A stretch of DNA of 39,628 nucleotides from Gammaproteobacteria bacterium (GTDB lineage Bacteria > Pseudomonadota > Gammaproteobacteria > Methylococcales > DRLZ01). Position numbers and translations under genes: made by a program. The notes below the pieces were generated by a model that was given only the letters and a program-made list of their open reading frames with translations, was not told the DNA's origin and made no database searches. The DNA lies in contig JAHZJL010000240.1 in NCBI GenBank assembly GCA_022600935.1, positions 1 through 39,628 on the forward strand. Reading direction: 5' to 3'. The number at the start of each line of letters is the position of its first letter. Position 1 is the first letter of the stretch. Of this stretch, positions 30,305-32,647 are shown in pieces.

Positions 30305-30580
30305 ATGACAACACCGATGACTCAACAGATAGTCCTTTATGGAACTGAAGGTTGTCATTTATGCGATGAAGCCAGAGATATTCTGGATATGGAATTAGCT
30401 GGGAACAACAGGAATATCGACTATCCCTATATTGATATTGTTGAAAATGATGAATTGCTGGAACGTTATGGACAATCAATTCCTGTGATACAGTTCATAA
30501 AATCCGGCCATGAGCTATTCTGGCCATTCGATATTAACGATGTAAGGAGTTTTTTAAGAAAAGAGATAGAGGATGGTTAA
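30305..30580 (+). CDS. glutaredoxin family protein
   Basis: LYGTEGCHLCDEARDIL; DIVENDELLERYGQSIPVIQF. Confidence 0.85.
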   Translation: MTTPMTQQIVLYGTEGCHLCDEARDILDMELAGNNRNIDYPYIDIVENDELLERYGQSIPVIQFIKSGHELFWPFDINDVRSFLRKEIEDG

Positions 30581-30688
30581 CTATAGTCGTAACTGATTGA
30601 ATATTAGAATAATATTATGAAGTTAACTGATAATAAAAAATGTAAATTGCCGCACATCCAAGCGCTGTTCAGCTTGGATTAACTAAAG

Positions 30689-30705
30689 TGCGACAATTTG
30701 CCACA
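30689..30705 (+). promoter_or_regulatory. upstream direct-repeat element of sRNA copy 1
   Basis: TGCGACA-ATT-TGCCACA; 19-nt TGCGACAATTTGCCACATT is identical in copy 2, 22 nt between the repeat and TATAAT in both. Confidence 0.65.
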
Positions 30706-30727
30706 TTTTCTATTGGCAGTGAATTGC

Positions 30728-30733
30728 TATAAT
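30728..30733 (+). promoter_or_regulatory. -10 box of sRNA copy 1
   Basis: TGCTATAAT (extended -10), 7 nt before the conserved GACTGAGTT. Confidence 0.7.
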
Positions 30734-30740
30734 TACTATC

Positions 30741-30834
30741 GACTGAGTTGAAGCAATATTATTTTTGTTGCTTCTTTGCACGAAAGTGCATTTCCTCCTC
30801 TTGATGGCAGGGCGAAAGCTCTGTCATTTTTTTT
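30741..30834 (+). ncRNA. putative small RNA, copy 1 (about 94 nt)
   Basis: GACTGAGTT start; stem GAAGCAA/TTGCTTC; GCAC-GAAA-GTGC hairpin; open TTTCCTCCTCTTG; terminator TGGCAGGG..CTCTGTCATTTTTTTT; near-identical second copy downstream. Confidence 0.8.
30804..30834 (+). terminator. intrinsic terminator of sRNA copy 1
   Basis: ATGGCAGGG-cgaaag-CTCTGTCAT then T-tract; two G-U pairs. Confidence 0.8.
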
Positions 30835-30871
30835 GTCTTTTTTTCAGCTCAGGCTGTATTGCCTGATCTCA

Positions 30872-30888
30872 TGCGACAATTTGCCACA
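30872..30888 (+). promoter_or_regulatory. upstream direct-repeat element of sRNA copy 2
   Basis: TGCGACA-ATT-TGCCACA, identical to copy 1. Confidence 0.65.
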
Positions 30889-30910
30889 TTCCATCTTTTT
30901 TTTCAATTGT

Positions 30911-30916
30911 TATAAT
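30911..30916 (+). promoter_or_regulatory. -10 box of sRNA copy 2
   Basis: TGTTATAAT (extended -10), 7 nt before the conserved GACTGAGTT. Confidence 0.7.
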
Positions 30917-30923
30917 TTTAACC

Positions 30924-31012
30924 GACTGAGTTAGAGCAATGTGAATTGCTTGTTTGCACGAAAGTGCATTTCCTCCTCTTGGTGGCAGGGTTGGGAAACC
31001 CTGTCATTTTTT
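30924..31012 (+). ncRNA. putative small RNA, copy 2 (about 89 nt)
   Basis: GACTGAGTT start; stem AGCAAT-GTGA-ATTGCT; GCAC-GAAA-GTGC; TTTCCTCCTCTTG; terminator TGGCAGGGTT..AACCCTGTCATTTTTT. Confidence 0.8.
30983..31012 (+). terminator. intrinsic terminator of sRNA copy 2
   Basis: TGGCAGGGTT-ggga-AACCCTGTCA then TTTTTT; loop-proximal stem differs from copy 1 with pairing kept. Confidence 0.85.
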
Positions 31013-31142
31013 ATCTTTTCAAGATTCAGTTGTTCGATTGAGAAAGGGCAAGTGAATTCAGCTCATGATCTGCCAGTTCTTGTTTTATTGTGCTGGCTCG
31101 ATTCCATAAGAAATTGAATACTTATGTACGTTTAGCAAATAG

Positions 31143-31160
31143 CCTCCTCTTGACAGCAGG
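31143..31160 (+). repeat. degenerate third trace of the sRNA repeat
   Basis: CCTCCTCTTGacaGCAGGG matches CCTCCTCTTGRTGGCAGGG of copies 1 and 2; spacing 171 nt versus 178 nt between copies 1 and 2. Confidence 0.6.
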
Positions 31161-31204
31161 GTAATATATTCAATATTAAACTGCTTGACAGAAAACACCT
31201 GCCC

Positions 31205-31816
31205 TCAGGACGAAAAAGATACTCCAGTTTTATGAAAACCGCAATACCCATTCGGGTTTTTTGCTAAATATTGTTGATGATCCTGCTCAGCAAAGTAGTA
31301 AACCAGGAGAGGGCGAATCACTGTTGTCACTTCACCATAACCCGCACTGGATAAACGTTTTTGATAGTGCAGCCTTGACTGCTCGGCCTGTTCCTGTTGC
31401 TCTGCATTGACAGTCAATAGTATTGAACGATATTGGCTGCCGTTGTCATTGCCCTGACGCATTCCCTGAGTCGGGTCGTGAGCCTCCCAGAAATGGACCA
31501 ATAAGTCCTGGTAACTGATGATGCCAGGATCAAATACAATACGGACAACTTCTGCATGACCGGTTTTACCAGTGCAAACTTCCTTGTAATTCGGGTGCGG
31601 AGTGCTTCCGCCGCTATAGCCGACTGAAGTTGAATAAACACCGTTTAATTGCCAGAAATAACGTTCCGGCCCCCAGAAACAACCCAGACCCAGAACAGCT
31701 TGCTGATAACCGTCAGGGAAGGGCGGAATAATGGTATTGCCATTGACAAAGTGTGTTTTGTGAATGGTGAGAGGTTCCCAACGTCCGGGTAATGTAGCAT
31801 CGCAGATCACTGACAT
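31205..31816 (-). CDS. msrA: peptide methionine sulfoxide reductase A
   Basis: AVLGLGCFWGPERYFWQLNGVYSTSVGYSGG; FWEAHDPTQGMRQGND. Confidence 0.95.
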   Translation of the reverse strand: MSVICDATLPGRWEPLTIHKTHFVNGNTIIPPFPDGYQQAVLGLGCFWGPERYFWQLNGVYSTSVGYSGGSTPHPNYKEVCTGKTGHAEVVRIVFDPGIISYQDLLVHFWEAHDPTQGMRQGNDNGSQYRSILLTVNAEQQEQAEQSRLHYQKRLSSAGYGEVTTVIRPLLVYYFAEQDHQQYLAKNPNGYCGFHKTGVSFSS

Positions 31817-31885
31817 GGTAAAGTAATCCCAAGATTAATTAAATGGTCAACACACAAGTCTTTTAGCAGGATTATACAGCGTTTC

Positions 31886-32647
31886 ATGCATTGCAAAACT
31901 CTTTTAAGTACCATCATTCTGCTATTGCTCTGTCTGTTATTGAGTGGTTGCGTCTATTTAAGACTGTTAGAGCTCAAAAACCAGTTCAATGAATTTGATG
32001 ACTATATAATCATCAAAAAAGATGCCGGCTTTTCACTGTATTTCAAACAACCGATACTGGAAAAAACGGATATTTTAAATTTATCCAAATTAAGTCCAAC
32101 CCAGATTCTGTCTGATGATGACGGTGAAATCTGGACTTACCATTTTGACAAGATTCACAACCCTGACCAACACATACACCAACCCGTATCACTAGTTTTT
32201 CGTTTTCGCTTCAATCAACAGGACAAGCTGCAGCAATGGTTTTTCCCGGATGAATTTCTGGCAATCGTTCCTGATGAATTTCTGGAAGCCTCGTTACGTT
32301 CTCTGGGGCAGGCGACAATATTTAAATTATCCAGAAAGATCAAGGCCGATGTTACACGTTTAAATACATCAGCCAGTCCGCCTGATCAAGCATCCGTGCA
32401 AAAAGTGTTAGGTCCAGCGTATGAGATTGTCAATGAAAACACCTTTCAGCGATTCCTTTACCGGTTCAAGCTGAAAACTGACCGCATTGAAGAAGGATAC
32501 GAGGATCGTCAGATTGCATTGGTAAAACTGGATTTTGTACCGCTTAAACAAATATTGTTCAAAGCATCGCCGCGTTTTGCCGGTTTAAAGATATCGGTCA
32601 ATTATTCAAAATTACTTGGGCAAGACTATTTCAATGAATCAAAATAG
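31886..32647 (+). CDS. hypothetical lipoprotein
   Basis: LLLCLLLSGC lipobox; 253 aa. Confidence 0.7.
   Translation: MHCKTLLSTIILLLLCLLLSGCVYLRLLELKNQFNEFDDYIIIKKDAGFSLYFKQPILEKTDILNLSKLSPTQILSDDDGEIWTYHFDKIHNPDQHIHQPVSLVFRFRFNQQDKLQQWFFPDEFLAIVPDEFLEASLRSLGQATIFKLSRKIKADVTRLNTSASPPDQASVQKVLGPAYEIVNENTFQRFLYRFKLKTDRIEEGYEDRQIALVKLDFVPLKQILFKASPRFAGLKISVNYSKLLGQDYFNESK

Follow-up and report, generated by a model that had tools for sequence, protein, structure and literature searches.

Putative tandem sibling small RNA genes with predicted RegA-type promoter boxes in a Methylococcales genome

The tandem units and their neighbours

The contig JAHZJL010000240.1, analysed over its whole length of 39,628 nucleotides (hereafter the window), contains two tandem units on the + strand that are predicted to encode small RNAs (sRNAs). 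Each unit is composed of a 19-bp box, an extended −10 element (TGnTATAAT in both copies), the motif CGACTGAGTT, two stem-loops (SL1 and SL2), the stretch UUUCCUCCUCUUG and an intrinsic terminator, arranged in the same order (Table 1). The TTTGCACGAAAGTGCATTTCCTCCTCTTG block is identical in the two copies. An earlier sequence-only reading had described shared elements in identical order, and all of them are located where it placed them, nearly base for base. Two of its points are refined here. The two units stand, but the transcripts that it put at about 30741-30834 and 30924-31012 are now predicted to start at about 30740 and 30923, on the basis of the promoter spacing found across the order. 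In addition, the 19-bp block that it counted among the unit parts is present and is promoter DNA outside the RNA, most likely a site for a response regulator of the RegA/PrrA/RoxR type.

The predicted fold of copy 1 has an energy of −33.9 kcal/mol (z −5.2) and that of copy 2 −31.5 kcal/mol (z −3.5); in neither case does any of 200 dinucleotide shuffles equal the value. In the centroid folds, UUUCCUCCUCUUG is unpaired between SL2 and the terminator. This stretch is UC-rich and complementary to Shine-Dalgarno (SD) regions.

A coding function was rejected for lack of a conserved open reading frame (ORF) in the units: by sequence reading, copy 1 has a frame of about 20 codons that starts with ATG and overlaps with its terminator, and copy 2 does not have that ATG, in line with the earlier view that no credible ORF lies here. 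A leader or attenuator function was likewise rejected, because promoter and terminator are present in each unit separately and the + strand from 30581 to 31885 is free of ORFs of 60 amino acids or more. The wider idea that the units are not genes, but small repeats, cis elements or terminators accompanied by promoters that are there by chance, draws on the signs of duplication and decay at the locus, namely the tandem arrangement and the remnant of a third copy; the counterpart of this remnant in the congener HyVt-476 is better preserved. We regard this explanation as very improbable, given that each unit carries a promoter and a terminator of its own, that the next + strand gene of at least 60 amino acids begins only at 31886, that no Rfam leader matches, and that several families keep the units, with their promoters in place and stems that have diverged.

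A small gene (30305-30580, +) resembling thioredoxin/glutaredoxin genes lies before the pair and one resembling msrA (31205-31816, −) after it, both identified by sequence reading.

Table 1 Positions of the predicted elements of the two sRNA units in the window
Feature	Position	Strand	Details
RegA/PrrA-type box, copy 1 (predicted)	30689-30707	+	TGCGACAATTTGCCACATT; 19 bp; centre about −44
Extended −10, copy 1	30725-30733	+	TGCTATAAT; TATAAT at 30728-30733, TG before
sRNA copy 1 (predicted transcript)	30740-30834	+	
SL1, copy 1	30750-30774	+	GAAGCAA..UUGCUUC
SL2, copy 1	30777-30790	+	UGCAC-GAAA-GUGCA
Exposed anti-SD stretch, copy 1	30791-30803	+	UUUCCUCCUCUUG; putative targeting region
Intrinsic terminator, copy 1	30805-30834	+	with U-tract
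RegA/PrrA-type box, copy 2 (predicted)	30872-30890	+	TGCGACAATTTGCCACATT; 19 bp
Extended −10, copy 2	30908-30916	+	TGTTATAAT; TATAAT at 30911-30916, TG before
sRNA copy 2 (predicted transcript)	30923-31013	+	
SL1, copy 2	30934-30951	+	GAGCAAU..AUUGCUU
SL2, copy 2	30955-30968	+	identical to copy 1 SL2
Exposed anti-SD stretch, copy 2	30969-30981	+	UUUCCUCCUCUUG
Intrinsic terminator, copy 2	30983-31013	+	UGGCAGGGUU..AACCCUGUCA, with U-tract
Decayed third-copy remnant	about 31142-31162	+	GCCTCCTCTTGACAGCAGGGT; without box

Conservation in Methylococcales

The host genome (G000) falls within the methanotroph order Methylococcales, and its congener HyVt-476 (G001, 'Crenotrichaceae', L047) possesses the same tandem pair beside msrA, with 77% identity. 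When up to three mismatches are allowed, the box occurs three times in the 3.9-Mb genome (reversed control, 0), and all three occurrences are at members of the sRNA family. A third complete copy in the host genome (L059:1370-1467, contig C198) differs in its SL1 and SL2 sequences and has the same kind of box, the CCTCCT motif and the terminator.

Across 85,462 species genomes, the box combined with CCTCCTC is found in 37 stretches, nearly all from Methylococcales or Nitrosomonas. Matches from Dechloromonas, a Rhodobacteraceae bacterium and an Acidobacteriota metagenome-assembled genome (L036, L049 and L050) were judged to be chance, being GC-rich and devoid of promoter or terminator. Among 311 Methylococcales genomes, box plus CCTCCT gives 67 matches in 48 genomes and the reversed pattern none. 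A search independent of the box (CCTCCTCTT with a GCAGGG..CCTGC hairpin after it) returned 24 matches, 23 of which are the same box-bearing genes. Relatives of the pair are thus spread over five families of the order, and the conservation that the sequence-only reading had named as a check is found.

Families f1 to f5 have SL1, SL2, CCUCCUC and the terminator in common, and their stem sequences have diverged: the SL1 stem is GAAGCAA..UUGCUUC in copy 1 of the window and GGUAAU..AUUACC, GUUCGG..CCGAAC or CCCGCUGAGG..CCUCACGCGGG elsewhere. Over 61 sequences the mean z is −2.1 for the region 5′ of CCTCC and −4.6 for the terminator, values that are not clean probabilities because the sequences are related by kinship and some non-members are included (Nitrosomonas loci, whose z values are close to 0 or positive). 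With the conserved core of SL2 as anchor, 23 of 27 sequences retain the adjoining outer pair (shuffle mean 15.0), a number reached by none of 2000 shuffles. One or two compensated pairs were found in groups outside the close relatives. Structural support therefore comes mainly from stems that have diverged between families yet still fold, together with the SL2 outer pair. Since a single MAFFT alignment of all families misplaced the stems, a covariance model (R1) was built from four f1 copies instead; it reaches the other families at E values of 4.7e-7 to 0.01, at loci preselected through the box pattern.

Neither the window nor the sRNA loci of the relatives contain a match that reaches the gathering score of an Rfam 15 family, and matches at relaxed thresholds are meaningless; the earlier impression that no named sRNA family is involved therefore stands. 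No earlier description of such sRNAs for Methylococcales was found in the openly accessible papers searched. This looks like an undescribed sRNA family of an already known kind, whose linkage to a redox two-component system is unusually tight. The congener pair, the relatives in five families, the positioned promoter and the lack of an Rfam match agree with the earlier proposal of duplicated sRNA genes under selection.

Two further kinds of unit share the box and −10 element. At the Nitrosomonas loci (L039:2890-2999, L040:4324-4434 and L053:6582-6694), these precede a unit whose long GC-rich hairpin carries two CCUCC motifs in its loop and has T's after it. Ammonia oxidisers may possess their own RegA-linked anti-SD RNA. 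In family f6 (L011, L013 and L018), about 50 nt past the box, a transcript-like unit beginning CAACUCUUA ends in a GCCCUC..GAGGGC terminator and has no CCUCCUC.

The promoter box and its linkage to RegB/RegA

Seventy-five unique box instances were aligned on the box without gaps. The main conserved signal 3′ of the box is an extended −10 element, with T at 36, G at 38 and TAnnnT at 40-45 counted from the first G, and the expected start position shows a weak C/A preference. The spacing from box to extended −10 is fixed across these instances, which places the box centre near −44, and the −35 is poor. The promoters are therefore predicted to be of the sigma-70 type with an extended −10, with starts at 30740 and 30923. 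A site near −44 with a poor −35 is typical for an activator contacting RNA polymerase, so the position of the box, taken by itself, suggests that the regulator bound there acts as an activator. The box core GCGACAATTTGCCAC resembles sites of Rhodobacter capsulatus RegA defined by ChIP, for example that of cydA, GTGACAATTTGTCCC (PMC5359404 Table 2). A matrix built from 33 such sites gives each of the two boxes a score of 12.98, which places them 4th-5th among the 39,614 positions of the window.

A RegB/RegA pair is present in the same genome (L060, contig C36). In NCBIfam its best matches are the families ActR/PrrA/RegA (2e-56) and ActS/PrrB/RegB (6e-74), both under the strict equivalog cutoffs; PDB matches include the PrrA DNA-binding domain 1umq, and a RegA-type helix-turn-helix (HTH) with the conserved MHRRTLQRKL segment is encoded. 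Gene order provides the strongest link between the sRNA family and RegB/RegA. In 15 genomes of f2, f3, f5 and f8, an sRNA-like gene driven by the box lies next to regB-regA in divergent orientation, on the regB side and 0-211 bp away, and in G099 and G237 the same arrangement has regA 2-3 kb from the sRNA-like gene. The box is not adjacent to regBA in G000, G001, G022, G039, G131, G194 and G215, and in G009 and G029 the box-bearing locus lies at the end of its contig. RegA and box are both present in 30 of 35 genomes, both absent in three (G007, G013 and G033) and discordant in two (Fisher P 0.002, for a hand-picked set and with phylogeny ignored).

The RNA beside regB in f8 has a different core (AACUUUUAAGG..AAAGUUGCGUUAUAUCCUUCCU). 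This second sRNA-like class carries the same box, divergent from regB, at L204:1690-1862, L205:1730-1904, L206:1738-1911, L207:1758-1933, L208:4045-4217, L209:3859-4030 and L210:1880-2052. Its terminator arms change in step (GGCGGUU/AACCGCC, GGCAGUU/AACUGCC and GACGACU/AGUCGUC), and Rfam gives no match to it.

We consider the two genes of the window to be, with good probability, RegA-controlled (probably RegA-activated) trans-acting sibling sRNAs of about 90 nt that mask the Shine-Dalgarno sequences of target mRNAs. Sequence, conservation, promoter anatomy, structure and the regBA linkage in relatives are observed here, and from them we infer transcription, RegA binding and whether RegA raises or lowers expression, as well as pairing and targets. 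Several observations weigh against this reading. Covariation, which the sequence-only reading had named as support if significant, is weak within the close f1 family and not above shuffles. In the genome of the window and its congener, regBA lies away from these sRNA genes. Anti-SD motifs, moreover, have poor target specificity. Three further points would also fit real sRNA genes whose box is read by a different regulator, such as another response regulator or a Fis-type protein. The RegA matrix is weak and by itself not specific, since three other window positions outscore the boxes. G004 (L028:3226 and 3520) has a tandem pair of box promoters and a third one elsewhere, and no RegA-type HTH was found in it at 94% completeness. 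No strict box is present at the FeoA loci of probable Methylomonas genomes, where one might be expected because RegA binds the feo promoter in Methylomonas sp. DH-1, the only one bound of three promoters tested (PMC13274454). A regulator other than RegA is nevertheless unlikely, as the divergent regBA neighbourhood recurs in four families, RegA and box are missing together from the three genomes named above, the box is similar to the RegA ChIP sites, and the RegA-type HTH of this genome keeps its MHRRTLQRKL segment.

Proposed function and related systems

Under RegA control, a redox signal, such as the methanol-induced NADH stress reported for Methylomonas sp. DH-1 (PMC13274454), would pass through RegB to RegA~P, which would bind the box and lead to synthesis of both siblings. 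Each RNA would end at its own intrinsic terminator, exposing UUUCCUCCUCUUG between SL2 and the terminator. The segment CCUCCUCUUG could then pair with purine-rich Shine-Dalgarno regions (complement CAAGAGGAGGAAA), and this pairing would block translation of selected mRNAs in the manner of the Neisseria sibling sRNAs.

Targets were sought in the two congeners as AGAGGAGG before an ATG, which gave 12 sites in the two genomes and 5 control matches. The sole gene found in both is glnA (AAGAGGAGG). Its predicted duplexes with the sRNA have energies of −15.6 and −18.2 kcal/mol, compared with a mean of −5.6 for 30 start regions of the window, the glnA sites having been chosen for that very sequence. 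The best target candidate is glnA, and it is only a candidate because the motif complements any strong Shine-Dalgarno sequence. The same generic complementarity, together with the small number of strong sites before ATG, would suit RNAs that mainly sequester a protein or the ribosome, as a protein sponge or a general anti-SD decoy, and not chosen mRNAs. Such a role appears improbable, as the conserved single-stranded stretch (UUUCCUCCUCUUG) reaches beyond the core, the Neisseria parallels pair with specific mRNAs, and CsrA-type GGA loops were not seen in the RNAs.

Among known systems, NmsRA/NmsRB of Neisseria (NgncR_162/163) are functionally closest to the Methylococcales siblings (PMC5362039, PMC9973317). 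They are tandem, intergenic and 70-78% identical, with three stem-loops, an intrinsic terminator and a single-stranded UC-rich anti-SD sequence, and their known targets are repressed at the ribosome-binding site (PMC5362039, PMC9973317). Similarly, the two units of the window are alike and adjacent, and their separate promoters and terminators predict separate transcription; they too have an unpaired UC-rich anti-SD sequence, three stem-loops and an intrinsic terminator. In Neisseria, however, the anti-SD sequences occupy the SL2 loop and the segment separating SL1 from SL2 (PMC5362039), whereas here the stretch is found 3′ of SL2, ahead of the terminator. Expression of the Neisseria siblings is tied to the stringent response, and a RegA box is not reported there. 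The order of elements thus departs from that of the NmsR/NgncR family, and a relation by descent is not shown.

The alphaproteobacterial alpha-r14/NfeR1/cuckoo RNAs and CcsR1-4 resemble the present family in having a fixed, unpaired CCUCCUC-type motif with drifting stems and in occurring as homologous copies within one genome (PMC10746234, PMC10253847). The alpha-r14/cuckoo RNAs repeat CCUCCUCCC in unpaired regions of several hairpins (PMC10746234), whereas the units here have one CCUCCUCUU, in the linker, and without the repeated CCUCCUCCC they do not belong to that group. Unlike the units here, the CcsR copies arise by processing of a single transcript that also carries ccaF1, and NfeR1 is under LsrB and NtrC (PMC10746234, PMC10253847).

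PcrZ of Rhodobacter sphaeroides offers a precedent for the regulation proposed here: as reviewed in PMC8139620, its synthesis needs the RegA orthologue PrrA and its promoter has a PrrA consensus site, so a RegA orthologue can control an sRNA. PcrZ belongs to another bacterial class, and the text consulted describes no tandem siblings, CCUCCUC linker or prrBA linkage. The RegB/RegA of Methylomonas sp. DH-1 is the same two-component system in the same order and responds to methanol-induced redox stress; that study names feo as a direct target and mentions no sRNA (PMC13274454).

More tentatively, RegB/RegA of Methylococcales might ancestrally have been a three-part module of kinase, regulator and divergent RegA-driven anti-SD sRNA, with much of the indirect effect of RegA on C1, nitrogen and iron metabolism exerted via these RNAs. 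The RNAs would have duplicated, moved and diverged in sequence while keeping promoter and mode of action, the pair in the window being a relocated example. The family would link a redox sensor that answers methanol-induced NADH stress to post-transcriptional control, and it offers a testable account of RegA effects that look indirect. Because the sRNA gene is linked to regBA in culturable genera, for example Methylococcus and Methylocaldum, this account can be tested at once.
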